From Ligustrum vulgare (Eukaryota > Streptophyta > Magnoliopsida > Lamiales > Oleaceae), in assembly GCA_963555705.1 (NCBI GenBank), contig OY743171.1:26840852-26904851 (forward strand): 64,000 bases of DNA, read 5' to 3'. Under the pieces are notes generated by a model that worked only from the letters and a program-made list of their open reading frames with translations, made no database searches and had not been told where the DNA came from. Position 1 is the stretch's first letter. Each line of letters begins with the position of its first letter. A program made the translations under genes and the position numbers. This document shows, piece by piece, positions 3,840-61,448 of the stretch.

Positions 3840-3856
3840 ACCTTACCCCCTTAAAA
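3840..3856 (-). promoter_or_regulatory. T1 polypurine tract
   Basis: On the minus strand the sequence reads ..ttttaagggggtaaggt directly before the LTR start TGTAGCGACC. It follows a 'ttcgaggacgaaat' stretch typical of the 3' end of Tekay/Del elements. It would prime plus-strand DNA synthesis. Confidence 0.85.
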
Positions 3857-10798: not shown

Positions 10799-11059
10799 GC
10801 GAGTCTACCTTAAATCCGACGAGTGCAAAGTTGAGCGGGAAACGACTTAAATTCTTTAAATCTCCGTACGCCTCATCAGCCAATAAATTAAATTAGTCTT
10901 TAGAAATTTATAGTTTAAAAATGATAATTTACAATTTGAGGACTAAAATTGATGTTTTGAAAGTTGAGGGACTAAAATGAATACTTTGAAAGTTGATGGA
11001 CTAAAATGAATACTTTGAAAGTTGATGAACTAAAATGAATACTTTTGAAAGTTGATATT

Positions 11060-17942: not shown

Positions 17943-20021
17943 TGTATTAAGAAATGTGAAATGATTCTACAACAAATTATGGAGATGTCATATTTTGCTT
18001 TTGAAAGCAATGTTATTTTCCTAATTAAGGAATTATGGGGGTGAGATCAAACTAAGATCAAGAAGATTATTGATGAATATTGAGATTTATCATATTGTTT
18101 ATCTCTTTTGAAATAAAATACTTATATGAAGTATTTTTTATGAATGCATAGATATGCATAACAATTATTGAAAATTTGTAAATTTTCATTGAGAATACAT
18201 GAGATTGGATTTGTCTATACTTATTGTGATTATTACAATGGTCATGTGAAAAGTGATAAATATTTACACAATTGGATGATGAGATCACAAATATGATTTT
18301 ATAACGACCATTGATTAACGTTGATATTTGTTTTGTAAAACAAATTTGCTCATATCTCGAAAAACAAAGTCTTTCAATGAGTGAAAGAATTACAAATTTA
18401 TTTCTTTCAAATTGAGTTAAAGAATTAAGAAACTTATGCTTATTCCAAATATGTGGGAATAAGGCGTATTACAAAAGAAAATTATATTGTGCTCATAGTG
18501 GAGATAATAATCTTTTGCAAATATAAATAAAACAATTGAGGTTTTATTACATAACGTTTCTTTCAATTGAGTTGAAAGATTATACATAAAAGTTGAATTT
18601 AGCCTAAAATGAAGAGTGGCATTTTGGCAAAAAATTCAAACTATAATTTCTGAATTAATGAAAATTATATTGTGATTGTGATCAAATATCATAGCAGAAA
18701 TTTTGACAAGTTTAAAGGATATTAAAATGCAAATAATTGATTAAGTTGGATCACATAAACAAAATTTATCTATACTTCTAAAAGAGAGAAGTGTAAATTA
18801 ATAAAGTGATAGAGTCACTTTATGTATTTAACAATATTGTTATCAATTGAAGAAGTGATTAAGTGTAATCACTAAAATACATTTGAAAAATGTATTGTAA
18901 ATTCATTCTTTTAGCGAAAAAGAATATTGAATTTAATTTTATTATACCTCAAATGTGGGGTTAATATGATTAAGTCCTAAAAGAGACTTTTAAAAGTTGT
19001 GAGGGGATGGATACAAGCAGTGGAGGAAGAAAAAACATGGAGTGCAGTGACAAAGGTAAGTAAGTTATCTTGCATTATAAATTTATATAATATATTCTAT
19101 GCATGGAATACATGTTAAATTTGCAATATAGAATACTATATTGTTATACCTTATTTTGACATATAACATATCATTGAAATTGGATTTAGTTATTAAATAC
19201 CATATTTAATAATATTGTTGGTGCATTGATTATGTGAGAATCTATCTTATTGCATATTGCTTATTTGGTTGAAAATTATGAAGTATATGATTTTCAAACT
19301 TTAAATGAAAGTATAGTTTCATGAATGCATGAGATTCTAATAACCTTAGTGGTTTCCTTAAAATTCTCATTATGATAAGTATGTTACTCTTTATAACAAC
19401 ACGATATTGTTGAATCATGTAAATTTCATTTGCTTGGACTCTTTGAGGAACAAATATATGCTACATTTATTCATAGTATAAATTGCTACATACTAAATGA
19501 ATTTGGTATATGAGATAATTATAAGGCATTGATATGAGGCAAATGATAAATATTTATCACGCAACAATAAAGCATTTTTGTCTTAAAACATGTGAATCAT
19601 TTACAAATACTTATGTGAAGTATTTATTATCAGTTTGTCTTATTTGAGAAATTTGAACAAATAGAAATTTATTTACTATACATAAATACATTTTATGCAA
19701 TTTTTGTTCAAATTTGTTATCATCTTATTTCATACTATTGTGTATAATCATGTTTGATTATTATTCTCATATAATTTGAGAAAATATGCTAGATGATATG
19801 ATAGAATGAGTCTATCTAATTGATATTGATATCAACCATTGATATCATATGTGAAAAGCATTATTATTAATGGAGAGTAATAATATGAAACATACAAGTG
19901 AATATAGATTATTGTTGAATATTGTGGTTCACAAAGAGAATCATCCACTTAAATAAAATTGAGAAATTTGAATTTTATCCCAAAGTATGGGGTTAACACT
20001 CAAACAAATATTGTAAAATAT

Positions 20022-20887
20022 TGATGCGATCCCGGGATGGGGTCACGACGAACACGCGGAAATAACGCCGGGAAAGTTCCGAATTCAGGTTGGAAAGGAC
20101 GATAACACTACGACCCGAGCCTCACGACGCAAGAACCAGGGGCATATTAAACCCGAGACCCGTTACGATGCGGAAACAAGAACCGTAATGGTTTGAACGC
20201 CACAAGGAATGTCCAAATCCTTGATAAGTTCGATTTGGTGAACGCCACAAATATCTCACAATATTTGATAAGTTCGAAAGTTCATTCAAGAACAATATTT
20301 GGGAGAGAAATAACTCAACACAATTTTCATTAATCAAAGTCTTATCTCTTTCTGTATTACAATGCAGACGCCTTTATATAGGCAACCAAAATAAAGATCC
20401 TAGTCTACTTTGAAAACTAAATAAAATCTAATCTAATTAGGGAATAGATAAAATCTATCAAAATAGAGTCCTAATTTAATTGGAAACAATAACAAAAATA
20501 AAGTAAATCTAATCCTATAATTAAGGAAATAAAAAATCCGCAAATCTTGGAATTACGGCCGTGACAACATTCCTTATGGTCGTAACTGTACTTCTGCTTA
20601 AGGATTACGGCCGTGACCATAAACTTACGGCCGTAACTTTGAAAACCTGAAATTCTTCTTTTTAATCCGAGAGTGACTTACGGTCGTAACTTTGCTTCTG
20701 CCTAATTTTTTTATTTTCTCGATTTCCAACTCGATTCTCGGCTTGTCTCTAATCTTCCTCACTTGGTTTAGCCTCGAACCTTGTTCACTCTCGCAATGCT
20801 TGATCTGTGAAGCTCTTCGAACATGCTGGAAGGTTTGTTTGGCTTGATTTGTAGTTCTTTCCGTCAAGCCCGCCATGATTCTCATCA
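20022..20887 (-). mobile_element. Solo LTR of the CRM-like / Gag-only family
   Basis: An 866-bp LTR, TGATGCG..CTCATCA, with exact duplication aatat (20017-20021 and 20888-20892). It matches the CRM-type LTRs on the minus strand. It has two hairpin modules (20195-20231 and 20240-20275, minus sense) and an array of ACGGCCGT palindromes at 20556, 20577, 20608, 20628 and 20680. Two hairpin modules make it closest to the LTRs of elements C and 57210-61448. Confidence 0.9.
20556..20687. repeat. Paired ACGGCCGT palindrome array (solo LTR)
   Basis: Cores start at 20556/20577 (21 apart), 20608/20628 (20 apart) and 20680 (partner lost). Non-consensus members are ATGGTCGT and ACGGTCGT, changed by C-to-T transitions. 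Confidence 0.88.
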
Positions 20888-21967: not shown

Positions 21968-24693
21968 TGTAACACCCCAAGTTCAAGAATCTTAAACCTA
22001 GGTGTTAACTCCCCTTTTTCTTTTAATGCGGAAATAAATCGTTTAAATATTAAAATGCGGAATTTAAATCGTTTACACGACAAAAATATTCATTTATCTA
22101 TTATAAAATTTTAGCGAAATTTCGGCAGAGTCTCCTCTACAAATTGGACATAGCCAACCTGTAGAGGAGCATCAAAACCATTTATAAATACACATCACAA
22201 CTCACTCCATCCCAAACATCATCCAAACCATTATAATAAGTCCCAAACTCCTCAACAATACAATTCCAAGTAAATAAACTTTAGCAAATGAAATAAGAGG
22301 TATTTTAACCTCAATAATACATGAATTAAAGGATTAATAATTAGAAATTGAAATAAATTCTAATCTAACTTTATTTTAAAAGAGTTGATGCGGGTATAGC
22401 CTGAGTCAGCTGCCGAGTGCTCTCCTCGGATCACCTAACTTTCATCACCTGAAATATTGGGGAGGGATTGGGGTGAGCTAAAGCTCAGTAAGTAAACTGT
22501 ATGCATGAATGCATGCTTATGACATGAATGCTTTTTCAAAAATTCCATGTATCCCCATTCACTTTAACCTTTCAAAACTCTCAACATTTCGAACTTTCAC
22601 TTAACATTTCAAAACTTCACTTCATTCCATCGTGAGCTCACTTGATGTAACTTCTAGTCAATCAGATAACAGTGGGCCATTCTTATTTGGAACCAGATTA
22701 ACATGCGCATTTCCACCGCAAAGCGGTTTAACATTCACTTTCCCACCGCAAAGCGGCTCATTCATTCATTCCACCGCAAAGCGGCTCATTACATTCATTC
22801 CACCGCAAAGCGGCTCATTACATTCGGGTACGCCAGTCCCCCGCGCCCCATTTCCCACTCGCATCTTTCATAACATAGAAGTACACCCATTCTTTCAAAA
22901 ACTTGGGATACATAATTTTTGACAAAAATTGTACTTTGACACATTCGTTTCATTAAAACATTTGACTTTCTCATTTCGATGCCAATGCATGCTTGATGAT
23001 GCAATGACATGTAACGTGCATGCTTGAACATTTCCTTAACTACACATAATTGCATATGGTAGACCAAAAACATTAAAATTCCATAATTAACACGAATGTC
23101 AATTAAGCACATTAATTCCACATTAACATTCAACTTTGATGAAAGTAGGGGGAAGTTTACTTACTTGCAATCCTTAGTAATTTACCGTTTTCTGGATTTG
23201 CAAGTGGAGGAGCCTCGACTGCCAGTGTCTTCAATGTACCAAAATCCTAGTTGTACCCATTCATTAAGTGAAATATAATTTTAGTTCAAAATCACATTTC
23301 ACACTTCTAAATAAGGTTGAGACTTTCATGTTACTCACAATTCAAACCAAATGGGATCTTAAGTCATGTCAAATACAAATCATACTTCATTCGAAATAAG
23401 AGATTAACTTAGATGCCAAAATTGAAATCTAACTAATCAAATTACACAAAGGTTCAATCTATGGAATCTTCATCACAACTTGAATTTCACAAGGACAATT
23501 CCAATTAGCATTCTACTATTCATAAATTTGAAAATCACCATTTATTCAAACTTTACCCGAACAGTTAACTAAATTACAAATTTTCATAAATCTCAAAATC
23601 AGAAATTTATATATATATATACATATTTTAAAACAAATCAGAAATTTATTCACGTTACCCAAATTCTAAAATTCTCAATTTAACCCTTCATTAAACTAAA
23701 TCTGGGAAACATGAAATTGAATTTCCACTTTAAAAATCAAAGTAAACTAACCGCTAAATCCTTACATTTTTAAATCTGAAATTTGTACACATTTACATAA
23801 TCTACCCTAAACTGAAAATATAATAAATTTCCACTTTAATTAGAAATCCAACAAAACCAATTTATTCTCTGAATCCATAAATCTGAAAAAGTACACACAT
23901 ATGTATACACACACACATATATACGCCCCAAATCTGAGGTTAACAATTAAAAATTCGAAATTTGACTACAACTCAATTTGAAAAAAATCTGAAATGTTCA
24001 TATAAAATATATACATACAACATATATACATCATTACATAAAAACCCGTTTGTGTGCGTGTAGAAATGTGTGTTGTGTGTGTAAAAACGTGAGTGACCGA
24101 GCGAATTTGGGTGGTGTGTTCGGTTCGGTGTGTGCACAGAAAGAGAAGGGGAAGCCGGGGTTTTTACCGCCGGTGCAGGGACGACCAGTGGCGGTCGATA
24201 ATCAGGCGGAGACGGTGCCGGGAGCTGCGAGCGGCATGAGAGAGGCAGAGACCGAGAGTGAGGAGCGTTGCGGTCGAAGAGAGGAGAGGGAGCAAGTTTT
24301 GAGTCTTTAGGTTAGGATTTAAAAGTTAATCTTTTGAAATTTGCAATTCAGTCCCTCAATCTCCTCTATGTACATAACTTAGTCCATAAGTTCTATTTAC
24401 TCTCCAATTGTCACCAAAGTTTCCCCCAACTTTCCATTTAACACAATAAAATAGAAAATATCATGTTTAAGCAATAAAAATTTAATCACATAAAATTACA
24501 CGTAAACTATTAAAATAAACAATTTATAAACTTTTAATTGGTACATTGATCGAGACGGCATCCGAGTCCTTCCACTGCAAAATAATTCGAATTATCGACA
24601 TTAAAATATCATTAAATTTAAAATTTATAATAACATTAACATAATTATTACGTGAAATCAAGAACGCACGTAAAACGAAAAACTGGTATTACA
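21968..24693 (-). repeat. T2 LTR, left copy
   Basis: 2726 bp, plus-strand ends TGTAACACCCC and ..GGTATTACA. It contains a four-unit CCGCAAAGCGG array at 22716-22813. A GC-rich open stretch at 24050-24310 is low in similarity to anything recognised and is repeated in the other LTR (30576-30836); I treat it as LTR leader sequence, not a gene. Confidence 0.9.
22716..22813. repeat. CCGCAAAGCGG inverted-repeat array in T2 LTR
   Basis: Four copies of CCGC-AAA-GCGG start at 22716, 22746, 22774 and 22803 (spacing 30, 28, 29). The other LTR has copies at 29242, 29272, 29300 and 29329, the second damaged (gcgg to gcat). Each can form a 4-bp stem with a 3-base loop. Confidence 0.9.
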
Positions 24694-28493: not shown

Positions 28494-31219
28494 TGTAACA
28501 CCCCAAGTTCAAGAATCTTAAACCTAGGTGTTAACTCCCATTTTTCTTTTAATGCGGAAATAAATCGTTTAAATATTAAAATGCGGAATTTAAATCGTTT
28601 ACACGACAAAAATATTCATTTATCTATTATAAAATTTTAGCGAAATTTCGGCAGAGTCTCCTCTACAAATTGGACATAGCCAACCTGTAGAGGAGCATCA
28701 AAACCATTTATAAATACACATCACAACTCACTCCATCCCAAACATCATCCAAACCATTATAATAAGTCCCAAACTCCTCAACAATACAATTCCAAGTAAA
28801 TAAACTTTAGCAAATGAAATAAGAGGTATTTTAACCTCAATAATACATGAATTAAAGGATTAATAATTAGAAATTGAAATAAATTCTAATCTAACTTTAT
28901 TTTAAAAGAGTTGATGCGGGTATAGCCTGAGTCAGCTGCCGAGTGCTCTCCTCGGATCACCTAACTTTCATCACCTGAAATATTGGGGAGGGATTGGGGT
29001 GAGCTAAAGCTCAGTAAGTAAACTGTATGCATGAATGCATGCTTATGACATGAATGCTTTTTCAAAAATTCCATGTATCCCCATTCACTTTAACCTTTCA
29101 AAACTTTCAACATTTCGAACTTTCACTTAACATTTCAAAACTTCACTTCATTCCATCGTGAGCTCACTTGATGTAACTTCTAGTCAATCAGATAACAGTG
29201 GGCCATTCTTATTTGGAACCAGATTAACATGCGCATTTCCACCGCAAAGCGGTTTAACATTCACTTTCCCACCGCAAAGCATCTCATTCATTCATTCCAC
29301 CGCAAAGCGGCTCATTACATTCATTCCACCGCAAAGCGGCTCATTACATTCGGGTACGCCGGTCCCCCGCGCCCCATTTCCCACTCGCATCTTTCATAAC
29401 ATAGAAGTACACCCATTCTTTCAAAAACTTGGGATACATAATTTTTGACAAAAATTGTACTTTGACACATTCGTTTCATTAAAACATTTGACTTTCTCAT
29501 TTCGATGCCAATGCATGCTTGATGATGCAATGACATGTAACGTGCATGCTTGAACATTTCCTTAACTACACATAATTGCATATGGTAGACCAAAAGCATT
29601 AAAATTCCATAATTAACACGAATGTCAATTAAGCACATTAATTCCACATTAACATTCAACTTTGATGAAAGTAGGGGGAAGTTTACTTACTTGCAATCCT
29701 TAGTAATTTACCGTTTTCTGGATTTGCAAGTGGAGGAGCCTCGACTGCCAGTGTCGTCAATGTACCAAAATCCTAGTTGTACCCATTCATTAAGTGAAAT
29801 ATAATTTTAGTTCAAAATCACATTTCACACTTCTAAATAAGGTTGAGACTTTCATGTTACTCACAATTCAAACTAAATGGGATCTTAAGTCATGTCAAAT
29901 ACAAATCATACTTCATTCGAAATAAGAGATTAACTTAGATGCCAAAATTGAAATCTAACTAATCAAATTACACAAAGGTTCAATCTATGGAATCTTCATC
30001 ACAACTTGAATTTCACAAGGACAATTCCAATTAGCATTCTACTATTCATAAATTTGAAAATCACCATTTATTCAAACTTTACCCGAACAGTTAACTAAAT
30101 TACAAATTTTCATAAATCTCAAAATCAGAAATTTATATATATATATACATATTTTAAAACAAATCAGAAATTTATTCACGTTCCCCAAATTCTAAAATTC
30201 TCAATTTAACCCTTCATTAAACTAAATCTGGGAAACATGAAATTGAATTTCCACTTTAAAAATCAAAGTAAACTAACTGCTAAATCCTTACATTTTTAAA
30301 TCTGAAATTTGTACACATTTACATAATCTACCCTAAACTGAAAATATAATAAATTTCCACTTTAATTAGAAATCCAACAAAACCAATTTATTCTCTGAAT
30401 CCATAAATCTGAAAAAGTACACACATATGTATACACACACACATATATACGCCCCAAATCTGAGGTTAACAATTAAAAATTCGAAATTTGACTACAACTC
30501 AATTTGAAAAAAATCTGAAATGTTCATATAAAATATATACATACAACATATATACATCATTACATAAAAACCCGTTTGTGTGCGTGTAGAAATGTGTGTT
30601 GTGTGTGTAAAAACGTGAGTGACCGAGCGAATTTGGGTGGTGTGTTCGGTTCGGTGTGTGCACAGAAAGAGAAGGGGAAGCCGGGGTTTTTACCGCCGGT
30701 GCAGGGACGACCAGTGGCGGTCGATAATCAGGCGGAGACGGTGCCGGGAGCTGCGAGCGGCATGAGAGAGGCAGAGACCGAGAGTGAGGAGCGTTGCGGT
30801 CGAAGAGAGGAGAGGGAGCAAGTTTTGAGTCTTTAGGTTAGGATTTAAAAGTTAATCTTTTGAAATTTGCAATTCAGTCCCTCAATCTCCTCTATGTACA
30901 TAACTTAGTCCATAAGTTCTATTTACTCTCCAATTGTCACCAAAGTTTCCCCCAACTTTCCATTTAACACAATAAAATAGAAAATATCATGTTTAAGCAA
31001 TAAAAATTTAATCACATAAAATTACACGTAAACTATTAAAATAAACAATTTATAAACTTTTAATTGGTACATTGATCGAGACGGCATCCGAGTCCTTCCA
31101 CTGCAAAATAATTCGAATTATCGACATTAAAATATCATTAAATTTAAAATTTATAATAACATTAACATAATTATTACGTGAAATCAAGAACGCACGTAAA
31201 ACGAAAAACTGGTATTACA
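28494..31219 (-). repeat. T2 LTR, right copy
   Basis: 2726 bp, equal in length to the left copy. Differences include aactccca for aactcccc near the start, one damaged CCGCAAAGCGG unit at 29272, and single substitutions near 29362, 29596, 29756 and 30184. Confidence 0.92.
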
Positions 31220-38596: not shown

Positions 38597-39321
38597 TGAT
38601 TCGGTTCCTTTTGGGAAATCCGACAAGAAACGCGAAATAACAATTTAATAAAGCAGGAAATATCTAAATTTAGAATAACAAAAATAATAAAAATGTAGAC
38701 GATAGGACCTTGATCCAAGATTCACGACGCAATGAATTGACGATGCGGAACAAGAACTAAGGTTTTCGAACGTCACAAGGGATGTCTAATTCCTTGATAA
38801 GTTTTGAGTTGGAACGCCACAAAGATTCAAGAATATTTGATAAGTTTGATGGGTTATTCAAGAAAAAGAATTCCTCACTTTTCTAGAGAAAACACTCAAA
38901 TTCATTCAATAATATCCAAATTAATGTTTCAATAATGAAAAAACACAATATAAGGTAAGAAAAAAACATGCTCAAAATAACCCTAGCTGCATTAGGATTC
39001 CTATTTGCGAAATATAATAATTAAAACAGAGAATAAATTTAAATCGTGAAATTCTGGAATCGTTAGAGCCATGCAATCACTTTGCAATCGCGTGGTTGAG
39101 TCAATTTCCTCTCGGGTCCTTTTTTGGTGACACCGTGCGATCGTGTGCCACTTTGCCTCACGCGATCGCATGGTTTCCCGTTGGTTTCCTCGTCCACTCC
39201 TTAAAGTGATTTGATTCTTGATTCGGGTCCAACATGAAACTTGTTTATTTTTCCATGTAGCTTGTTGTTACATTGCCTGTAGCTTGATTTTTCATGTGAT
39301 CTCCTACCTTGGATCATATCA
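38597..39321 (-). repeat. Left LTR of element C, GCGATCGC-type
   Basis: 725 bp, TGATTCGG.. to ..ATCATATCA, followed by the complement of a polypurine tract (ttccccctctttt). By its hairpin modules (38768-38803 and 38812-38847) and downstream blocks it belongs to the CRM/Gag-only LTR group. Its palindromes, however, are GCGATCGC-type: degenerate cores at 39073 and 39084, GCGATCGT at 39137 and GCGATCGC at 39162. It would be the 3' LTR of minus-strand element C. No matching target duplication was found at the other end. Confidence 0.75.
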
Positions 39322-39582
39322 TTCCCCCTCTTTTGAAAAAGATTCAACATCGAATGTGCAACATGATCAATCCTCTTGTAACTTCTGTAATTGTTGGTTA
39401 TTGGAACACGCTTATATTTGGTGTTGTCCTTCAACATTATGGATTGTTCTTCCTTGCAAGTAAATTTATTCTTGCTTTAATGTTATGATTTGGTTTTGGT
39501 ACCTGCAAAACATAAGTAACCAAACTAGGGAGGGATGTGTTAGCATGGCCAAGTGCAAGGATTGGTTCCTTATATTTACCTT
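39322..39582 (-). pseudogene. C-terminal tail of element C Gag-protease-only polyprotein
   Basis: A minus-strand frame (39201-39437) includes HSMLNLFQKRGNDMI, matching the tail SRSNPFQEREYDVI of the intact Gag-only element at 60500-60540. As there, it reads directly into the LTR. Upstream minus-strand sequence (39480-39582) matches the region joining protease to tail. The join to the rest of C is broken by insertion of B, whose duplication acctt is at 39578-39582. Confidence 0.7.
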
Positions 39583-40425
39583 TGATATGATCTATTATGG
39601 GGATCACGAAGAACATGCGGAAATTAGACTCGAAACGCCGAAAAGCCCCAAATCCAATTGGTTGACGATTACAATGCAACCCCGACCTCACGACTCAAGA
39701 ACCAGGGGTATATTAAACCCGAGACTTGTTACGATGCAGAGATAAAAACCACAAAGGGGTGAACGCCACAAAGGTTTGTCTAATCCTTTGATAAGTTTGA
39801 TTTGTTCAATAAGAACGAAGAAGAACAAGGGAATAACTCACCTTCAATTATCAATAATCTCAAAGTTGTGTTTTACAATGGAAAAGAAACTTAATATAGC
39901 AAACAAAATGCAAAAAAAATAACCCTAGCCACAAAACAGTAATTAAAACGCGGCTCTAGTTACGACCGTAACATATGGCTTTACGGCCATAAGTGACCCT
40001 CGGGTTCAAAAGTTGTTTTATTTCTTACGGCCGTGACATAGGTTCTTACGGCTGTAAGTTACATGTTGAATCAAAATCCCATAAATTACGGCCGTGAAAA
40101 GGATGTTTACGGCCGTAAGTCCCTTGCTGCCCAATTTATGCGATGAAGAAGTTACCCCGTAACTTCAGCTTTTACGGCCATTAAAGGCCTTCTGCCTTCT
40201 TCCGGTTGTTCTTTGACCCAAATGCATTGTAATGGTGTTGGATCTTCTTCCATCTTGTCATGCATTGAAAATGGAGTCTTCGAGCTTGCACTCGAGCACT
40301 CATCCATCCAAGCTTGCATAAATCCCTGCATTGCCTGCTTGATCTTCTTAGCTCTCAGCCTCGTTATTGGACCTACTGGTACATGCAACGGGTCCTTGCT
40401 TGTTGGGCCACTCCTGTACTCATCA
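39583..40425 (-). repeat. Element B left LTR (3' LTR)
   Basis: 843 bp. Palindrome cores (minus or plus, same site) at 39962/39983, 40027/40048, 40088/40109 and about 40153/40174, each pair 21 apart. One hairpin module at 39761-39797 in minus sense. The polyprotein's last frame (40152-40388) lies within it. Confidence 0.9.
39962..40181. repeat. Paired palindrome array, B left LTR
   Basis: Four pairs, start-to-start 21 bp in each, pair-to-pair about 65, 61 and 65 bp. Variants include ACGACCGT, ACGGCCAT and ACGGCTGT. The first member of the fourth pair is damaged (accccgt). Confidence 0.88.
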
Positions 40426-41306
40426 TCCCCTCCCTGTTGAAAATGATTTGTCCCTGAATCATCACATGCATCAAACAGAGAAAGGTTAGGGACGTTAAAA
40501 GAAGCATATACATTATACTCACCCAGAAGATCCAGCTTGTATGCATTGTCGTTTATCTTCTCGATGACTTGAAAGGTCCATCTCCCCTTGGCTGCAGCTT
40601 AGATTTCCGTTGTGTCGGGATCCGCTCCTTTCATAAGTACACCCAGACCCAATCACCCGGTTTGAACTTCACATGCCTCCGCCCTTTGTTTGCTCGGGAT
40701 GCATAATGTTCGTTCTTATTTTCTATTTGGTCCTTCACCTTCTCATGGATTTACTTTACAAGCTTAGCATTTTTCTCCCCATCCAAAATGTTCCTTTCGT
40801 CTACAGGCAAAGGAATTAAATCAAAAGGAGTTAACGGGTTGAAACCATAAACAGTCTCAAAAGGAGAATATGATGTAGTAGAATGCACAACCCTATTATA
40901 AGCAAATTCTACAAATGGTAAACATTCTTCCCAACTTTTTAGGTTCTTATTTATGATGGTGCTAAGGAGTTGGGTTAATGTTCTATTTACTACCTCTGTT
41001 GGTCCATCAGTCTGAGGGTTAAATGTAGTAGAAAACAACAATTTGGTACCCATCTTCCCCCACAAAACCTTCCAGAAGTACGTCCCTATCTGATATAATG
41101 CCCCTGGGTACCCCATGTAGCCTTACAATTTTCCTAAAGAACAAATCTGCTATGTTTGTAGCATCATCAGTTTTGTGACATGGGATAAAATGCGTTATTT
41201 TGCTAAACCTATCTACTACCACAAATATGGAATCCCTACCTTTTTTTGTCCTAGGCAGACCTAAAACAAAATCTATAGATATGTCCACCCAAGGTTCATT
41301 AGGCAC
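40152..41306 (-). pseudogene. Element B integrase and CR-like C-terminus
   Basis: Minus-strand frames read [20 protein letters not shown] and [20 protein letters not shown] (integrase core, first catalytic Asp), then [20 protein letters not shown], and across the LTR border PVGPITRLRAKKIKQAMQ. The last phrase matches the CR motif at the C-terminus of CRM integrases. The N-terminal zinc-binding region is decayed. Frameshifts occur near 41100 and 40750. Confidence 0.85.
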
Positions 41307-45889: not shown

Positions 45890-46738
45890 TGATATGATCC
45901 GTTATGGGGATCACAAAGAACACGTGGAAATTAGACTCGAAACGCCGAAAAACCCCAAATCCAATTGGTAGATGATAACAATGCAATCCTGACCTCATGA
46001 CGCAAGAATCAGGGGTATATTAAACCCGGGACCCGTTACGATGCGGAGGTAAGAACCAAAAAGGGGTGAACGCCACAAAGGTTGTCTAATCCTTTGATAA
46101 GTTCGATTTGTTCAATAAGAACGAAGAAGAACAAGGGAATAACTCACCTTCAATTATCAATAATCTCAAAGTTGTGTTTTACAATGGAAAAGAAACTTAA
46201 TATAGCAAACAAAACGCAAAAAAAAATAACCCTAGCCACAAAACAGTAATTAAAACGCGGCGCTAGTTACGGCCGTACCATATGGCTTTACGGCTGTAAG
46301 TGACCCTCGGGTCCAAAAGTTGTTTTATTTCTTACGACCATGACTAAGGTTCTTACGGCCATAAGTTACATGCTAAATCAAAATCCCATAATTCAATTAC
46401 GGCCGTGAAAATGATGTTTACGGTCATAAGTCCCTTGCTGCCCAATTTATGCGATGAAGAAGTTATGGCCGTAACTTCAGCCTTTACGGCCGTAAAAGGC
46501 CTTCTGCCTTCTTTTCCGGTTGTTCTTTGACCCAAATGCATTGTAATGATTTTGGCTCTTCTTCCATCTTGTCATGCATTGAAAATGGAGTCTTTGACCT
46601 TGCACTCGAGATCTCATCCATCCAAGCTTGCATAAATCCCTACATTGCCTGCTTGATCTTCTTAGCTCTCAGCCTCGTTTTGGACCTACCGGTACATGCA
46701 ACGGGTCCTTGCTCGTTGGGCCACTCCGATACTCATCA
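45890..46738 (-). repeat. Element B right LTR (5' LTR)
   Basis: 849 bp. Hairpin module at 46068-46104 (minus sense: GAAC, TTAT, stem CAAAGG/CCTTTG, TGGC, GTTC). Palindrome pairs at 46269/46290, 46334/46355, 46399/46420 and 46465/46486. Confidence 0.92.
46269..46493. repeat. Paired palindrome array, B right LTR
   Basis: The clearest case: four pairs, each exactly 21 bp apart, with pair-to-pair distances 65, 65 and 66 bp. Several cores have decayed by C/T or G/A transitions only (ACGGCTGT, ACGACCAT, ACGGTCAT, ATGGCCGT). Confidence 0.92.
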
Positions 46739-46743
46739 ACCTT

Positions 46744-49196: not shown

Positions 49197-50058
49197 TGAT
49201 ATGACCCGATATGGGGGATCACCAAGAACACGCGGAAATAAACGTTGGAAAACTCTAAAATCCAATTAGTAGACGGTAGAAATGTAACCCCGACCTCACC
49301 ACGCAAGAACTATGGGTATATTAAACTCAAAATCCTTTGATAAGTTCGAGTTTGTTCAACGAGAACAAGAAGAAATTTAAGAGAATACCTAATCTTCAAT
49401 ATCATAAATCTCAAGATAAAAGTTGTTCATTACAATGTTGAATGAAGCCTTAAATAGGCTAACAAAATAAAGTAACCAAAAATAAACTAGAAACAAAATA
49501 ACCCTAACCGCCTAACTTAAGTCAAATATGTGGCGCCTAAGTTACGGTCGTAACTTAAACATTTACGGCCGTAAGTGACTTATGGCTTAAAAATAAAAAC
49601 ACAGTTTACGGTCGTGACACTTTTATATACGGCCGTAAGTGACTTGCTGAACCAAAATAAAAAGTTACTAAACTCTGTTTACGGCTGTGAGTGTTTTGAT
49701 TACGGCCATAAGTACTTCCAATTCAGTTACGACCGTGAGATCATATATTACAACCGTTTTTTCTCTTCTGTCCAATTTCACGATGATAATGTTACGGTCG
49801 TAATTTTGGGTTTTACGGCCGTCAGCTGCTGCATTAATTTCTTGTTGTTCTTTGATCCAAATGCATTGTAATGACTTTGGCTCCTCGTCCACTTTGTTAT
49901 GCAATGTAAATGAGGTCTTCGCACTCGAGCACTCATTCATCCACGCTTGCATAAATCCTTGCATCGCCTACTTAATTCTTTTGGCTCTTTGCCTCGTTAT
50001 TGGCCCCACGGGCACATGCAACGGGTCAACGCTCATCGAGCCACTCCGGAACTCATCA
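49197..50058 (-). repeat. LTR shared by elements C and D
   Basis: 862 bp, TGATATGACCC..ACTCATCA. On its left is a primer site and leader, on its right a polypurine tract and integrase, both on the minus strand. One LTR therefore serves two internal regions, the product expected from LTR-LTR recombination between tandem or unequal copies. It has five palindrome pairs; its hairpin module is truncated (right arm deleted near 49325-49345). Confidence 0.85.
49544..49822. repeat. Paired palindrome array, D LTR
   Basis: Cores at 49544/49565, 49608/49629, 49681/49702, 49729/49750 and 49794/49815: every pair 21 bp apart, pair-to-pair 64, 73, 48 and 65 bp. Decayed cores include ACGGTCGT, ACGGCTGT, ACGACCGT and ACAACCGT. 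Confidence 0.92.
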
Positions 50059-51305
50059 TCCCCTCCCTGTTGAAAAGGATTCGTCCTCGAATCATCACCT
50101 GCGTCAAATAGAGAAAGATCGGCAACATTAAAAGAAGCAGACACGTTATACTCACCTGGAAGATCAAGCTTATATGCATTCTCATTTATCTTTTCAATGA
50201 CTTGAAAAGGTCCATCGCCTCTTGGCTGCAACTTAGACTTCCTTTGGGTTGGGAATCACTCATTTCGCAAGTGCACCCACATCCAATCACCCGGCTCGAA
50301 TGTCACTTGCCTCCTACCTTTGTTGGCATGAGTCGCATAATGCTCATTTTTATTTTCAATTTGCCTTTTCACCTTCTCATGAAGGGTCTTCACAAGCTTA
50401 GCCTTTTTCGCCCCGTCCAAACTGCTCCTTTCATCTACAGGTAAAGGAATCAAATCAAGAGGAGTTAGCGGGTTGAAACCATAAACAACTTCAAAAGGTG
50501 AACATGAAGAAGTAGAATGCACCGACCGATTATAAGCAAACTCCACAAATGGCAAACATTCCTCCTAACTTTTTAAATTCTTATTTATTATAGTGCGCAA
50601 AAGTTGGATTAATGTCTTATTAACTACCTCCGTTTGACCATCAGTTTGCGGGTGACATGTAGTAGAAAATAACAATTTAGTACCCATCTTCCCCCACAAC
50701 ACTTTCCAAAAGTAGCTTAGGAACTCAACATCCCTATCAGACACAATACTCCTAGGTACCCCATGGAGTCTCACAACTTCCCTAAAGAATAGGTCCGCTA
50801 TGTTTTTTGCGTCATTAGTTTTATGACAAGGAATAAAATGTGTCATTTTGTTAAACCTGTCTACCATCACAAATATCGAGTCTCTACCTTTTTTTGTCCT
50901 AGGCAAACCTAAAACAAAATCCATAGATATATGTACCCAAGGCTCATTAGGTACAGGTAAAGGAGTATACAACCCTTGTGGTAGGACCCTAGACTTTGCT
51001 TGTTTACAAGTTATGCATCTGTTACAAATATGGTGGACATCTCTTTTCATTTTATGCCAATAAAAATTTTCCTGCAGTGTTTCTAAAGTTTTCAAGACAC
51101 CAAAATGTCCCATTAATCCCCCACCATGTGCTTCACGCACTAACAATTCACGTATAGAACAATTTGGCACACACAACTTATTTTCCCTAAAAAGATATCC
51201 ATCATGCCTATAAAATTTGTCAACTGCACATTTTTCACATGAAGCATAAATGGTAGAAACATCAGGCAATTCAACATACATACCTCTAACATATTCAAAC
51301 CCAAG
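49850..51305 (-). pseudogene. Element D integrase to CR-like C-terminus
   Basis: Minus strand. The 253-codon frame ending at 50565 holds the zinc-binding region (H67, H74, C101, C104) and the core with D136 (SMDFVLG), D197 (SDRDV) and E233 (QTEVVN), so all integrase catalytic residues are present. A TGG-to-TAG stop follows (SW to S*), then AYNRSVHSTSSCSPFEVVYG, another stop, then [19 protein letters not shown] and, within the [17 protein letters not shown]. Everything upstream of LGFEYVRG is cut off at 51305 by sequence beginning TGATAAGTG. Confidence 0.88.
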
Positions 51306-51704: not shown

Positions 51705-52539
51705 TGATGAGTACCTGAGTGGCCCAACGAGTAAGGACCCGTTGCATGTACCAGTGGGACCAATAACGAGGCAGAGGGCTAAGAAGATCAAGCAAGCAAT
51801 GCAGGGGTTTATGCAAGCTTGGGTGGATGAATATTCAAATGCATGGTCAAAGACTCCATTTTCAATGCATGACAATATGGGGGATGCGCCAAAACCGTTA
51901 CAAGGCATTTGGGTCAAAGAACAAGGAGAAAAGAATTCAGAGGACCTTTTACGGCCGTAAGGTCTGGGAGTTACGGCCGTAACTTTGCTATCGCACGACC
52001 GTAACAATCAATTCACGGCCGTAATGGAGTTATGCAGTTTTTATTCAGAAGGTGTCTTACGGCCGTAAGAACTAGTGTCACGGCCGTAAGAGTAAAAATC
52101 AGTTTTGGACCTGAGGGGCAATTACGGCCGTAAGGTTGATTTTCACGGCCGTAAATCCCGCCTCGTTTTAATTTGTGTTTTGCGGCTAGGGTTAATTTTG
52201 GACGCGTTTTTAGGTTATATTATGTTTTCTTTGTCATTGTAAAGAGACAATTTTGATGATTAATGAGATTGATTGAATTAGGTGAGTTTATCCCTATTCT
52301 TCTTCGTTCTTGATTGAACCCTTTGAACTTATCAAAGGATTTGACAACCTTTGTGGCGTTCACCCCTTTATGGTTCTTCATTCCGCATCTTAACGGGTCT
52401 TGGATTTGATACATCCTTGGTTCTTGAGTCGTGAGTGTCGGGTCATATTGTTATCGTCAATTAATCTGGATTTGGAACTTTCCAAGTGTTTAATTCAATT
52501 TCCGCGAGATCCCGTGATTCCCCAACAAGAATCACATCA
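51705..52539 (+). repeat. Element E 5' LTR (B subfamily)
   Basis: 835 bp. A frame across it reads [18 protein letters not shown] and ends at 51960 on a TAA within the first palindrome. Hairpin module at 52325-52361 (stem CAAAGG/CCTTTG). TATA-like gttatattatg lies near 52213. Confidence 0.9.
51951..52152. repeat. Paired palindrome array, E 5' LTR
   Basis: Cores at 51951/51973, 51995/52015, 52059/52080 and 52124/52145 (22, 20, 21, 21 apart); pair-to-pair 44, 64 and 65 bp. Seven of eight cores are perfect ACGGCCGT. Confidence 0.93.
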
Positions 52540-54970: not shown

Positions 54971-55674
54971 ATTGCTAGTGCGTGAGGCTTATGGTGGGGC
55001 GTTAATGGGACACTTTGGTGTTATTAAGACATTAGAAACTTTACAAGAGCACTTTTATTGGCCTAAAATGAAAAAGGATGTTCACCATATTTGTGAAAGG
55101 TGCATAACTTGTAAGCAATCTAAGTCTAGAGTCTTACCACAAGGTTTGTATACACCTTTGCCCGTACCTAATGAACCTTGGGTAGATATATCCATGGATT
55201 TTGTGTTAGGTCTGCCTAGGACAAAAAAAAGGTAGAGACTCGATATTTGTGGTGGTAGACAGGTTTAGCAAAATGGCGCATTTTATTCCTTGTAATAAAA
55301 TTGATGCATATAAGCTCAATCTTCCAAATGAGTATAATGTGTCTGCTTCTTTTAATGTTGCTGATCTTTCTCTGTTTGATGCAGGTGATGATTCGAAGAC
55401 GAATCCTTTTCAACAGGGAGGGGATGATGAGTTCCGGAGTGGCTCGACGAACGTTGACCCGTTGCACGTGCCCGTAGGACCAATAACGAGGCAAAGAGCC
55501 AAAAGAATCAAGCAGGCAATGCAAGGATTCATGCAAGTGTGGATGGATGAGTGTTCGAGTGCAAAGACCTCGTTTACGTTGCATAAAAAAGTGGAAGAAG
55601 ATCCAAAGTTATTACAATGCATTTGGATCAAAGAAGAACAAGAAAATAAGGCAGAAGTAGAATCACGGCCGTAA
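54852..55674 (+). pseudogene. Element E integrase fragment and CR-like C-terminus
   Basis: Frame 54963-55235 carries the zinc-binding region, but the first His is Tyr (REAYGG, against REAHGG in D), then [12 protein letters not shown] and the core start [13 protein letters not shown]. An extra A in the run at 55224-55231 shifts the frame. The next frame reads [17 protein letters not shown] then jumps to [20 protein letters not shown], a deletion removing the rest of the core. It ends [18 protein letters not shown] inside the 3' LTR and stops on TAA at 55672-55674, in the first palindrome. Confidence 0.88.
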
Positions 55675-56369
55675 CACCTCTTTCACGGCCGTAAAATCAT
55701 CTTGGCTAAATTTGTGCATAAAGGCAGTCACGACTGTAAACCATGATCTCACGACCGTAACATCATCAAGAAAAAATTATGCAGAAGAGGACTCACGGCC
55801 GTAATACAAACCTTCACGGCCGTAAATAAAGTTTAGTAGTTTTTATATTTTTATTCAGAGAGTCGATTACGGCCGTATATAAATTTGTCACGGCCGTAAC
55901 ATATGTTTTTAATTTTTAATCTGTAGCATTCTTACGGCCGTAAACTCATAAGTCACGGCCGTAACTTAGGTGCCGCAATTTAAGATAATGTTAGGCGGTT
56001 TGGTTTATTTACAATTCTAGTCTATTTAGGTTGTTTTATTTTGTTAGTCTATTTATAGGGCTTCATTCAGTATTGTAAAATACACAACTATTATTCTTGA
56101 GATTAATGATATTGAAGGTGAGATATTCCCTTAATTTCTTCGTGTTCTCATCGAACAAATTGAACTTATCAAATGATTTGACAACCTTTGTGGCGTTTCC
56201 CCTTTGTGGTTCTTATCTCCGCATCGTAATGGGTTTTGGGTTTAATATACCCATAGTTCTTGCGTCGTGAGGTCGGGGTTGCATTGTTACCGTCTACTAT
56301 CTTGGATTTTAGAGCTTTCCGGCGTTTAATTCCGCCTGTTCTTGGTGATCCCCGTATCGGATCACATCA
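55425..56369 (+). repeat. Element E 3' LTR (D subfamily)
   Basis: 945 bp, preceded by polypurine tract caacagggagggga. Five palindrome pairs, a TATA-like ctatttataggg at 56049-56060, then a hairpin module at 56162-56198 about 110 bp further on (inner stem with one mismatch). Confidence 0.9.
55665..55962. repeat. Paired palindrome array, E 3' LTR
   Basis: Cores at 55665/55685, 55730/55751, 55795/55816, 55869/55890 and 55934/55955 (20, 21, 21, 21, 21 apart); pair-to-pair 65, 65, 74 and 65 bp. Eight of ten cores are perfect. Confidence 0.95.
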
Positions 56370-56728: not shown

Positions 56729-57370
56729 TGTAGCGAACAAGAATTTTTACGCATTAAATAATTATTTTAAATTATGAAAACATGCCGCTGCGATCTCACC
56801 CATTTTTAATTTAACATTGCGATGTATTCGTCTAGCCAAGTCGAGAAATGTCAAGTCCATTCGATTTTAAATAAATTCCGAATTTCCAAAATTTTATTTA
56901 TTTATTTAAATTATTATTTTCAAAATCATTTTAAATCCCAATTTACGTCAATCTCGTTTTATCAGTTTCATTCTTCCGACCCAGTTAAATTCACGTACGA
57001 TTTTCCTCGAATTACGTGCAATGCTTGTCTAGATTTTCACACTACCAACTTCCATCTATCACATCAATCTCATACCATGCCATACCCTAACTCTATATCA
57101 CCAACCCACTCCATTTCACACCACCAACCCTCTCTTTCAGCAACACCATTTTCAACGATCAACCACTCCCTCTCAGCAGCCACTCCACCGGTTCTCCCAG
57201 CACCAAAGGTGATATGATCCGGACCAGGCATCGAAGGGCGAAGTCGATCCATTGGCAATATGATAGTGATCTACGTGCAAAACGGAGCATGTTCCGTGTT
57301 GGTGTCGAGCCGAGAAGGCGAAAGGATCGAGCCGAGGCAGGAAATCAAACAATAAGGCAGAACTTGATTC

Positions 57371-57577
57371 ACGGCCGTAACCTTCATTTTTACGGCCGTA
57401 ACATTCTTAAGGCAGAAACAGGCAGAACGTTGATTACGGCCGTAAGAAGTTTATCACGGCCGTAAAACTGAAATTGAAATATTTTATGGCCGTAACATGT
57501 TGATCACGGGCGTAACACCTAATTGAAATTTGAGACAGAATGTTCATTACGGCCGTAAGCTATATATTCACGGCCGT
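57371..57577. repeat. Paired palindrome array, Gag-only 5' LTR
   Basis: Cores at 57371/57392, 57436/57456, 57486/57506 and 57549/57570 (21, 20, 20, 21 apart); pair-to-pair 65, 50 and 63 bp. 'ggcagaa' precedes several pairs. Confidence 0.93.
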
Positions 57578-57813
57578 AATTCAGGATTCCGGATTTTGCC
57601 AATTATTTTGTTTCCTTTTATTATTTTAGGTTATTTTCCTATTTTAGAATTTTAGTCTAATTAGAATTCTATTTTGAGTAATTTAGATGCTAGGTTATTT
57701 TGCTTATTTATACGCTTTTTCAATTCATTGTAAACAGACAAGTTTGAGTTGATTAATAAAATTTGTGAGAGGATTCTCCAAAATTGAGAGGTTGAGTTTA
57801 TTCCCATTTTCTT

Positions 57814-57937
57814 GAACTTATCAAAGATCCGATCTTTGTGGCGTTCTTCCAGCAAACTTATCAAATATTCTCAAGAATATTTGTGGCGTTTCCGAATTCG
57901 AAACTTATCAAGGAAATTGACAAGTCCTTGTGGCGTT
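57814..57937 (+). ncRNA. Three covarying hairpin modules, Gag-only 5' LTR leader
   Basis: Each module is AAC, TTAT, inner stem, loop, inner stem, TGGC, GTT. Inner stems are CAAAGATC/GATCTTTG, CAAATATTCT/AGAATATTTG (10 bp) and CAAGGA/TCCTTG. The outer stem is extended to GAAC/GTTC in the first. TTAT faces TGGC as a 4x4 internal loop every time. They lie downstream of the TATA-like box, so should be in the RNA leader. The same three are in the 3' LTR at 61138-61170, 61179-61214 and 61226-61261. Confidence 0.75.
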
Positions 57938-58125
57938 CACCAATCTTGGTTCTTCAATCCGCATCGCCATAAATTGCGTCGTGATTGTCGGGTCAAGGCT
58001 TTACCGTCGTTCTCTCCTTATTTTTCGTTGTTTGTCTTGTGTCGATCTGATCTAGATCTACCTAGGGTTTTAAATATCGTTATTCCGCGTGTTCGACGAG
58101 ATTCCCCGACTGGGAACTCATCATC

Positions 58126-58137
58126 TGGTATCAGAGC
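58126..58137 (+). promoter_or_regulatory. Gag-only element primer binding site
   Basis: TGGTATCAGAGC two bases after the 5' LTR. Confidence 0.93.
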
Positions 58138-58404: not shown

Positions 58405-60789
58405 ATGTCTGATAGAGAGGCTTCTACATCTTCATCTTCTGTTGGAGACAGGAAACAGCCCAGGGGCGTGAATAGAAAGGATGAACAGGGTAATGGTGAT
58501 ATTACAGCAATAAGGGCACAATTTGAGAGATTTATGGCACAGATGGTGAATAGAGATGCAGGGCGTGAATAGAGACCTCAGGATCAGTCTCATGATGGTT
58601 CTCGGGTTAGGAGAGGTAATAGACGTGAGGTTGGTGTGGATAATGAAGACATGGGCAGTGAAAGTGGCAGTATATCTTCAGGTAGTATACGAAGGAGGGA
58701 TAGAGGAGATAGGAATGAAAGGAGGCATGATAGGGAGCGTCGTGATGCTAGGAGGCATCGTGGGGGTAGAGATGTTGTTGATGACGACCTTGGAAAAATT
58801 AAAGTGAAAATACCATCGTTCCAGGGTAGGAGTGATCCAGAGGCGTACTTGGATTGGGAGACAAAGGTTGAACGGCTTTTTGATTGTAATAATTATTCAG
58901 AAAAGAAGAAGGTGAAATTAGCCGTGATTGAATTCACCGACTATGCAAATATTTGGTGGGATCAATTAGTGACGGGTAGGAGGAGGAACCTTGAGGAGCC
59001 GGTGGAGAGTTGGGGTGAATTAAAAACCATAATGAGGAAGCAGTTTGTGCCGACTCATTATTATAGGGATATTTATCAGAGGCTGCAGGGTTTGACTCAG
59101 GGGTCGAGGAGTGTAGAAGATTATCATAAGGATATAGAGGTGGCGATGATTCTGGCTAACGTGGTGGAGGATCGGGAAGCTACGATGGCTAGGTTTCTGA
59201 GTGGGCTGAATAAAGATATTGCCAATATCATTGAGCTGCAACATTATGTGGAGCTGGAGGATATGGTGCATATGGCCATGAAGGTGGAAAGGCAGCTAAG
59301 GCGAAAGGGGGCAGCAAGACACTCACCATCTTATCCTACATCACAACCTAAGCAGGAATCCAACGTTGAACATAACCCGAAAGGGAAGGAGGAGCCTACA
59401 ACGAAAGGTAAAAATATTTCTGATTCTCAAACTACTCGGGATAGAAATATTAAGTGTTTTAAGTGCTTGGGTAGGGGTCATATAGCATCCCAGTGTCCAA
59501 ATAGGAAGCTAATGATCTTGCGTGATAATGGTGAAATTAGTTCCGAGGATGAATTTAAGGGAATGCCTAAGTTAGTGGATGTTGGAGCTAGTAGTAGTGA
59601 TGAGGAAGGATTGACCTATCCTGAAAAAGAATCACTTGTTAATCGACGTGTCCTTAGTGCTAGGGCTAGGGTGGATGAAATTGGTGAGCAAAGGGACAAT
59701 CTCTTCCATACTAGGTGCTTAGTGGGTAAAAAGGTTTGTGGTATGATGATTGACGGGGGAAGTTGTACTAATGTGGTTAGTACAATGTTGATTAATAAAT
59801 TGGGCTTAAGCTTGATGAAATATCCAAACCCTTATAAATTGCAGTGGCTGACCGAGTCAGGAGAAATTAAGGTAAATAAGCAGGCTAGGGTCAATTTTTC
59901 CATCGGGGGTTATAAGGATGAGGTGGTCTGTGACGTGGTACCTATGCATGTTGGTCATATATTGTTGGGGCGACCCTGGCAACATGACAGGAGGGTAGTG
60001 CATGATGGGTTTAAGAATCAATATACATTTGTGAAGGGTGGGAAGAAATTTACACTTGTTCCGTTATCTCCAAAAGAAGCTCAAAATGATCAATTGAAAA
60101 TCAAAAGTGAGTTTGAAAAAAGAAATAAGAGTGTTGAGGCCACGACCTCAGAAAAAGGAGAGGGTGTGAAAGTTGAAAACAAGAGAGTTGAGGCCACGAC
60201 CTCAGAAAAAGGAGAGAATGAGTGCAAAAAGAAAAGAGAGTCCACCCCCAAATTGAGTTTATTTGCACATAGGTTGGTGTACGGAGATCCACACCTTGCA
60301 CTTAACCGAGCTAACAATTCCCTCCCCAGTTCTTTAAAATCTGTTTTGCAGGGACATAAATCAAGCCATGGATTTAAGACGAGGCAGAAATTTATTAGCC
60401 AGAATAAGCAGCCCAAGAGTCTAAAGGACTGGACGAAGCTTAAAAATGATCATCGAGCCCAGAAAAGCAGGAGGAGCTTGAAAAGCCGACCAAAAATGGA
60501 TTCGAGGTCGAATCCTTTTCAAGAGAGGGAGTATGATGTGATCCGGACCAGGCATCGAAGGGCGAAGTCGAGCCATCGAAAATATGATAGTGATCTACGT
60601 GCAAAACGGAGCATGTTCCGTGTTGGTGTCGAGCTGAGAAGGCGAAAGGATCGAGCCGAGGCAGGAAATCAAACAATAAGGCAGAACTTGATTCACGGCC
60701 GTAACCTTCATTTTTATGGCCGTAACATTCGTAAGGCAAAAACAGGCAGAACGTTGATTACGGCCGTAAGAAGTTTATCACGGCCGTAA
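58405..60789 (+). CDS. Gag-protease-tail polyprotein with one in-frame stop
   Basis: Reading from ATG at 58405 (MSDREASTSSSSVGDRK) the frame is open except for a single TAG at codon 56 (58570-58572); an open run of 717 codons starts at 58636. Order (numbering from 58405): acidic/Arg-rich region, Gag core (about 135-290), zinc knuckle CFKCLGRGHIASQC (about 351-364), protease with [11 protein letters not shown] (DGG about 450-452) and HILLGRPW, a KRVEATTSEKGE repeat linker, then a basic tail. RT, RNase H and integrase are absent. The tail crosses into the 3' LTR at 60534 and ends SRP-stop within the second palindrome pair. The lone stop may be a mutation or a readthrough site; I cannot tell. 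Confidence 0.9.
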
Positions 60790-61448
60790 AACTGAAATTG
60801 AAATATTTTACGGCTGTAACATGTTGATCACGGGCGTAACACCTAATTGAAATTTGAGACAGAATGTTCATTACGGCCGTAAGCTATATATTCACGGCCG
60901 TAATTCAGGATTCCGGATTTTGCCAATTATTTTGTTTCCTTTTATTATTTTAGGTTATTTTCCTATTTTAGAATTTTAGTCTAATTAGAATTCTATTTTG
61001 AGTAATTTAGATGCTAGGTTATTTTGCTTATTTATACGCTTTTTCAATTCATTGTAAACAGACAAGTTTGAGTTGATTAATAAAATTTGTGAGAGGATTC
61101 TCCAAAATTGAGAGGTTGAGTTTATTCCCTTTTTCTTGAACTTATCAAAGATCCGATCTTTGTGGCGTTCTTCCAGCAAACTTATCAAATATTCTCAAGA
61201 ATATTTGTGGCGTTTCCGAATTCGAAACTTATCAAGGAAATTGACAAGTCCTTGTGGCGTTCACCAATCTTGGTTCTTCAATCCGCATCGCCATAAATTG
61301 CGTCGTGATTGTCGGGTCAAGGCTTTACCGTCGTTCTATCCTTATTTTTCGTTGTTTGTCTTGTGTCGATCTGATCTAGATCTATCCTAGGGTTTTAAAT
61401 ATCGTTATTCCGCGTGTTCGACGAGATTCCCCGACCGGGAACTCATCA
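60534..61448 (+). repeat. Gag-only element 3' LTR
   Basis: 915 bp, nearly identical to the 5' LTR (differences include tgatgtgatcc for tgatatgatcc, cgaccggg for cgactggg). The last 85 codons of the polyprotein lie in it. Confidence 0.92.
60695..60901. repeat. Paired palindrome array, Gag-only 3' LTR
   Basis: Cores at 60695/60716, 60760/60780, 60810/60830 and 60873/60894 (21, 20, 20, 21 apart). Confidence 0.93.

Follow-up and report, generated by a model that had tools for sequence, protein, structure and literature searches.

The window, which is the whole 64,000-nucleotide stretch of Ligustrum vulgare DNA analysed here, holds a set of long terminal repeat (LTR) retrotransposons, many of whose LTRs carry a small hairpin module (Table 1). 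Pfam matches in the reading frames between or beside the module-bearing LTRs are to gag in three frames, to reverse transcriptase in one and to integrase in one. The gag frame at 58573-60789 enters the 3' LTR of its element at 60534. Another frame, at 55210-55674, passes from integrase-like sequence into an LTR and has no Pfam match. A 15-residue stretch of a frame running into the LTR may resemble the CR motif of group A CRM elements. The window also contains two further LTR elements, with LTRs of 2.6-2.7 kb that are 99.6-99.7% identical (1254-3855 / 8213-10814 and 21968-24693 / 28494-31219), in which a covariance model of the module finds no copies.

Table 1. Features of the window, with strand and supporting evidence.
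Feature	Position	Strand	Sequence and evidence
5' LTR of gag-only element	57210..58123	+	98.4% identical direct repeat with 3' LTR 60534-61448; primer site adjoins
TATA-like box TATTTATA	57705..57712	+	sequence
CATTGTAA, putative transcription start region	57726..57733	+	recurs across arrays
AATAAA, putative poly(A) signal, presumed end of R	57755..57760	+	sequence; poly(A)-like signal common across arrays
Short hairpin GAGA-GGAT-TCTC, 3' of poly(A)-like signal	57767..57778	+	sequence
Hairpin module 1	57815..57845	+	CAAAGAT-CCG-ATCTTTG; pattern match, fold test, covariance model
Hairpin module 2	57855..57890	+	CAAATATTC-TCAA-GAATATTTG; pattern match, covariance model, fold z -2.71
Hairpin module 3	57902..57937	+	CAAGGA-AATTGACAAG-TCCTTG; pattern match, fold test, covariance model
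Second structured domain	57942..58000	+	P1 57942-57948 with 57994-58000; P2 57955-57959 with 57983-57987
Primer binding site TGGTATCAGAGC	58126..58137	+	just 3' of 5' LTR
Same three modules, 3' LTR	61139..61261	+	pattern match, covariance model
Lone module, one stem mismatch, LTR ~55425-56369	56163..56197	+	pattern match, covariance model
Lone module, LTR ~51705-52539	52326..52360	+	pattern match, covariance model
Lone module, LTR ~45890-46741	46069..46103	-	pattern match, covariance model
Lone module, LTR ~39583-40428	39762..39797	-	pattern match, covariance model
Module 2-type, one stem mismatch, LTR ~38597-39568	38813..38846	-	pattern match, covariance model
Module 3-type, TGACGTT variant	38769..38803	-	covariance model
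Module 2-type, LTR ~19833-20709	20241..20274	-	pattern match, covariance model
Module 3-type, LTR ~19833-20709	20196..20230	-	pattern match, covariance model

The constant letters of the module, AACTTATCAA and TTGTGGCGTT separated by 3 to 30 nucleotides, match 13 times in the window and 0 times in 100 dinucleotide shuffles. A further copy on the minus strand (38769-38803) departs from the pattern by a single change, TGACGTT, and brings the total to 14 modules in eight LTRs: three each in G57 and G60, two each in A20 and B38, and one each in C39, C45, E51 and F55. Two pairs among these eight are both LTRs of one element. The original prediction had counted at least eleven copies in seven LTRs; all the copies that it quoted are present with their stems as quoted, and those missing from its list are the three at 61139-61261, in the 3' LTR of the element at 57.8 kb, and the one at 38769. 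A single stem mismatch occurs in each of two modules (56163 and 38813). In a ninth LTR, at about 49197-50060 on the minus strand, a deletion has removed the right half of the module.

A covariance model seeded with 11 of the window modules recovers exactly the 14 at 45.3 bits or more, with the next window match at 13.7 bits; 11 of the 14 are its own seeds and the other three are identical to seeds. As a null we took 119 chance matches with nearly the same constant letters, at least 117 of them bacterial among the matches listed and two viral with the same sequence. The model was run on 40 of these loci and reached at most 35.1 bits. An inner stem of at least six pairs, with G.U allowed, is found in 11/14 window modules against 3/119 of the chance matches listed.

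The source genome (1.385 Gb, 51 contigs) contains at least 27,160 constant-letter matches (13,284 + 13,876), a lower bound, and the reversed control pattern has none in the same 1.385 Gb. The pattern scan of IMG/VR gave just two matches, identical in sequence and with a 3-pair stem, which we rejected as true modules and took as chance; that of plasmids gave none. The integrase-like protein of the window likewise had no match in IMG/VR. We inspected 80 hand-picked stretches of this one genome of one species. Forty of them (20 of 10 kb, 20 of 1.5 kb) surround matches within the first 7.1 Mb of a single contig; the other 40, each 1 kb long, come from a list restricted to G.T at inner pair 4.

The host elements resemble one known group. 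Their LTR termini are TGATG/CATCA, both in the LTR alignment and in two sampled elements, L138 and L140. Among 12 loci that have a repeat pair, these two are flanked by 5-bp target duplications (GTTTC in L138, AAGGG in L140); the other ten have no clean duplication, often because the repeat match stopped short of the LTR ends. Group A of the CRM clade is described, in the available part of the survey, as having these LTR ends, 5-bp duplications and a coding region that continues into the 3' LTR (Neumann et al. 2011, PMC3059260), and the LTR lengths of the window fall within the 299-1,225 bp given there. The LTR ends and the duplications agree with membership in the CRM clade of Ty3/gypsy, and the frames entering the LTR may do so too. 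The earlier assignment of these LTRs as CRM-type is supported as CRM-like.

Across the window and the sampled stretches we recorded 103 arrays, with three modules in 45, two in 36 and one in 22. Neighbouring modules are spaced by about 10 nt, and 84 of 106 spacers in a set of 82 arrays measure 9-11 nt. A TATA-like box lies between -150 and -90 of the first module in 95/102 arrays. The motif CATTGTAA, with at most one mismatch, is present in 92/102, mostly 19-21 nt 3' of the TATA-like box and 78-128 nt 5' of the first module. A poly(A)-like signal was found in 73/102, and all three signals occur in this order in 67/102. A primer site follows the last module within 330 nt in 39/101 arrays, against 0.0007 expected per array, in a tally that includes 3' and solo LTRs, which should have no primer site; its offset from the last module is nearly always 132-135, 176-189 or 199-210 nt. 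The primer site TGGTATCAGAGC is presumably of the initiator tRNA-Met type.

The order of the TATA-like box, CATTGTAA, poly(A)-like signal and primer site supports a placement of the modules in U5, after the poly(A)-like signal and within the genomic RNA leader, provided that transcription begins where these signals suggest. We infer a start near CATTGTAA, by which the modules would be contained in the transcript. The location past a TATA-like box and before the primer site, as originally predicted, is thus upheld by the sequence signals and can be refined to U5. The same signals put the modules where packaging signals of retroelements are located, in untranslated leader sequence 5' of gag or at gag.

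A different repeated motif is found in the U3 of these LTRs. When one mismatch is allowed, the palindrome TTACGGCCGTAA has 51 copies, 14 of them exact. They all fall inside eight of the nine LTRs, the LTR at 38.6-39.6 kb being the one without; example regions are 57369-57579, 51949-52154, 39960-40118 and 60693-60903. Among 43 spacings within an LTR, 21 are 20-22 nt and nine are 40-44 nt, corresponding to two or four helical turns. From its sequence, this array looks like phased binding sites at the DNA level.

In the module itself, the base AACUUAUCAA/UUGUGGCGUU is nearly invariant, and the apical stem is variable with both arms changing together. Many different stems occur among distinct modules, with arms such as CAAGATT, CAAATATT/AATATTTG, CAAAGATC and CAAGGA/TCCTTG. 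The LTR alignment includes a paired insertion, with CAAGG..CCTTG and CAAAGG..CCTTTG at the same module position. Stems of at least six pairs occur in 36/50 distinct modules with exact outer letters, against 25% when arms are swapped between modules.

Covariation was scored against a tree null in which inferred substitutions were permuted on the tree. Inner pairs 4-6 score 0.647 in 76 rows (null mean 0.118, maximum 0.441), a value reached in 0/500 simulations, and 0.654 in a repeat with 92 rows (null maximum 0.430; 0/300). For inner pairs 1-6 the score was reached in 1/500 simulations. A second tool was run on a hand-picked 36 of the 76 rows. It found 92.0% of cells paired and a covariation of 0.274 against 0.151 in shuffles (0/500), with all six slid registers lower. 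The compensatory change originally claimed for the variable stem is supported. The tree null for the modules is lenient, because the helix slid by +1 and +2 also scores high: 0.259 and 0.300 against 0.654 in the true register, reached by 6 and 1 of 300 simulations. The share of paired cells at pairs 4-6 was matched by 45/500 simulations. Significant covariation was found only in tests of named helices. R-scape-like tests of all column pairs, which used a tree derived from the same columns, were not significant (best E 0.275 and 0.39). Since the paired bases change together, the module is very probably a real RNA structure.

The outer stem and the TTAT/TGGC loop had been described as constant, and both are near-invariant. 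The basal pairs AAC/GTT and CAA/TTG give zero covariation signal, and such invariant pairs neither support nor oppose pairing. In an RNAalifold model, however, the proposed 4x4 internal loop becomes a helix that contains tandem U.G pairs and a pair of single-base bulges, which may be the true arrangement. With the middle letters freed, 231 of 270 strand matches still have TTAT/TGGC or its reverse complement, in stretches chosen around exact copies and with a palindromic frame by which one module may count on both strands; a fully pairable middle was found in one of the 270, and that match is not module-like. In a comparison of seven LTRs, conservation is highest in module 3, with a mean identity of 85% (15/21 pairs comparable) against 51-66% elsewhere. 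Folding of lone modules was clearly better than that of shuffles in just 1/7 cases, with energies of -4.5 to -7 kcal/mol (seven folded), and among 12 leaders the minimum-energy fold sometimes lacks the modules. In the AU-rich class, 6/20 distinct modules have GNRA loops (GCGA in three, GTGA in two, GCAA in one).

The modules belong to a larger structured leader, as supported by a second domain that lies between them and the primer site. Two helices make it up, P1 with 7 pairs and P2 with 5, which lie around the conserved letters GGTTCTT, CCGCATCG, GCGTCGTGA and TCGGGT. P2 occurs as CAATC/GATTG, TATTC/GAATA, GATTC/GAATC, CATTC/GAGTG and ACCTC/GAGGT, and the P1 copy at 57942-58000 has one A.C mismatch. 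In 60 rows, from which 5 of 65 distinct U5 domains had been dropped by eye as mis-anchored, covariation is 0.501 for P1 (null maximum 0.308) and 0.576 for P2 (null maximum 0.437), each reached in 0/500 simulations; slid registers score 0.02-0.16. With 78 rows the result was 0/300 for each helix.

Other hairpins are present further upstream. The short hairpin that follows the poly(A)-like signal at 57767 has a counterpart in other LTRs, TTTTATTGA-GGAT-TCAATAAAA, which itself contains the poly(A)-like signal. Many sampled LTRs (L128-L187) have variable-stem hairpins 20-75 nt 5' of the first module, examples being the AATAAA-bearing one, TAATGTG-TGGATT-CACATTA and TGTTCT-TCG-AGAACA.

Retroviral leaders carry packaging and dimerisation structures between the transcript start and gag, and retrozymes are a known case of a small RNA motif in plant LTRs. 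The modules share the latter setting and differ in having no Rfam ribozyme match. Rfam at gathering score gave no matches in the whole window, and at loose E-values the leader gave seven (E 2.4-9.1), none of them a ribozyme. A hammerhead or retrozyme identity is not supported by Rfam, in agreement with the original statement that the modules fit neither a hammerhead nor a named family. Retroviral, Ty1 and Ty3 5' leaders are alike in having structured RNA from the start to gag and around U5 and the primer site, with serial hairpins (Ty3: available part of PMC11381356). The leader here differs from these in that a single type of hairpin, which combines a constant base with a stem that varies but stays paired, is used one to three times and has no Rfam match.

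As for earlier descriptions, the words "hairpin", "palindrom" and "leader" are all absent from the available text of the CRM survey (PMC3059260), and the module is not mentioned in the accessible parts of a survey of LTR structure (PMC3601003) or a screen for structured RNA in plants (PMC12218528). A literature search with the printed motif letters gave nothing related by title among the matches listed, and no description of the module was found in the open-access literature, as far as its text was available. On the grounds of no Rfam match and no mention in the available parts of these three papers, we rate the reiterated module as undescribed; a structured retroelement leader is known.

The leader is also shared by short elements. 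An interior of just 1.4-2.4 kb separates the module-bearing LTR pairs in 10/14 sampled loci, which appear to be non-autonomous relatives. Short elements with this leader are L140 (2857-5895, reverse strand), L128, L130, L133, L138, L139, L141, L142 and L147. The cleanest case is L140, a young element: its LTRs are 99.0% identical over 803 nt, with the AAGGG duplication and a 1,433-nt interior whose only open reading frame (ORF) above 250 aa, of 339 aa, has no match to a Pfam family. It has three modules with paired stems, the same in both LTRs, which have none, one and two changes in the outer letters. The 346-aa ORF of L128 also has no Pfam match, and in L133 Pfam gives an aspartyl-protease match as well as a zinc knuckle that stays below the cut-off. 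The ORFs of L140 and L128 have the stretch YHEYKDPYLVPHEANMSLPILF in common, and for this reason the short relatives may keep an ORF of their own. The retention of modules in L140, an element closely examined as a single case and judged to be without recognisable gag by Pfam on one ORF, suggests a cis-acting role that would be served in trans.

A precedent comes from barley. The gag-less BARE2 parasite retains the dimerisation and packaging signals of its helper BARE1, according to the available part of PMC3735527, where neither "stem" nor "hairpin" occurs. BARE1 and BARE2 belong to the copia lineage, unlike the CRM-type Ty3/gypsy elements of the window.

Our best guess, to which we give slightly less than an even chance, is that the modules serve in Gag recognition or in packaging of the genomic RNA. 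In CRM-type Ty3/gypsy retrotransposons and their short, apparently non-autonomous relatives, they would act in cis as a structure of the U5 leader RNA, a hairpin in which the nearly invariant base AACUUAUCAA ... UUGUGGCGUU and a mismatched or bulged middle carry a paired, variable apical stem. One to three tandem modules would be followed by the second covarying domain and then by the primer site. The invariant base would be the recognition site read by the Gag/nucleocapsid of the element, and read in trans in the gag-less relatives, and in this way genomic RNA would be picked out for packaging and reverse transcription. Recognition by Gag/nucleocapsid, which is also how retroviruses select their RNA and has been suggested for BARE2, would fit the position of the modules, their repetition and their retention in an element without recognisable gag. 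A base whose letters matter, on a stem that needs only to pair, is what a protein recognition site displayed by a hairpin usually looks like. More tentatively, the fixed base might be a short RNA address read by CRM-type Gag; its repetition would allow multivalent binding, and a swarm of parasites lacking gag would have copied it.

Other roles are less probable, in the order of translation control, nuclear export and dimerisation. We regard it as unlikely, though the best of the three, that the hairpins control translation, with ribosomes that scan a long leader towards gag being slowed or redirected by shunting or internal entry. The element at 57.8 kb does have such a leader, with CATTGTAA at 57726 and an open frame from 58573, and L140 and L128 still carry ORFs of 339 and 346 aa. 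However, the combination of fixed base letters and a variable stem is more easily explained by recognition than by simple blocking, and lone modules, at the folding energies given above, are weak. A part in nuclear export or stability of the unspliced RNA, like the mouse RTE and MTE that lead to the NXF1 pathway, seems improbable to us; a repeated internal-loop element in an unspliced leader recalls those of mouse IAP and MusD, but the available part of the source that describes them (PMC12786077) has no plant example.

Dimerisation of the genome through palindromic or kissing hairpins, as proposed for the Ty3 PAL6 site and known from retroviruses, is slightly less probable still. The modules are near the 5' end, in a place that the original prediction called suited to packaging, dimerisation or translation control, and extended duplexes could arise from perfect hairpins; in Ty3 the dimer site is itself a palindrome in a hairpin apex (available part of PMC11381356). 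Against this, only 1/20 distinct AU-rich modules has a palindromic loop (TCGA), the others being GCGA, GTGA, GCAA, GCTA and so on, which disfavours loop kissing in this class.

The one-sided states of the helices bear on whether the structure acts as RNA or DNA, since G.U preserves a pair in the sense RNA and A.C would preserve one on the opposite strand. G.U cells outnumber A.C cells by 72 to 18 in P1 and 20 to 1 in P2 (60 rows). With 78 rows the counts are 93 to 24 in P1 and 26 to 6 in P2, and 54 module rows give 16 to 11. Counted on the tree, changes from a standard pair lead to G.U and A.C in 11 and 6 cases for P1, 7 and 2 for P2 and 9 and 6 for the modules, or 27 to 14 overall (P1 and P2 together 18 to 8); with 78 rows P1 gives 15 to 9 and P2 10 to 5, together 25 to 14. 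The modules of L168-L207, biased to G.T at pair 4 by the basis of their selection, are excluded from both module tallies. The genome-wide number of G.T at inner pair 4, 361, has no A.C counterpart count and is not used as evidence. The wobble excess and the GNRA loops point, modestly, to sense RNA.

It is very improbable that the modules are instead inverted repeats acting in DNA, as protein-binding dyads or cruciforms. The same LTRs do carry the DNA dyads TTACGGCCGTAA in U3, and the wobble preference of the modules alone, 9 to 6 on the tree, is weak. Yet the arms vary between modules and stay paired, the one-sided states in P1 and P2 favour G.U over A.C, and the modules lie downstream of promoter-like signals. 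Equally doubtful is a mutational artefact: template switching at quasi-palindromes is a known mutation process that would yield paired changes and perfect stems, keeping the arms complementary without selection, but it should also perfect the mismatched middle, which is almost never fully pairable, and the arms of P1 and P2 covary although they lie about 25-45 nt apart around conserved letters.

To our knowledge, the choice of the RNA that plant LTR retrotransposons package is poorly defined. Outside BARE, little was known of the packaged RNA in 2013, according to the available part of PMC3735527. The question bears on non-autonomous relatives, which may ride on helpers and which shape plant genomes. 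With at least 27,160 matches, the covarying motif offers a concrete candidate binding site, a marker for finding and orienting LTRs and a candidate new Rfam family. If the fixed base is indeed an address read by Gag, a plant Ty3/gypsy lineage would have a packaging code defined by sequence, and tens of thousands of natural variants would separate the bases that need their identity from those that need only to pair.
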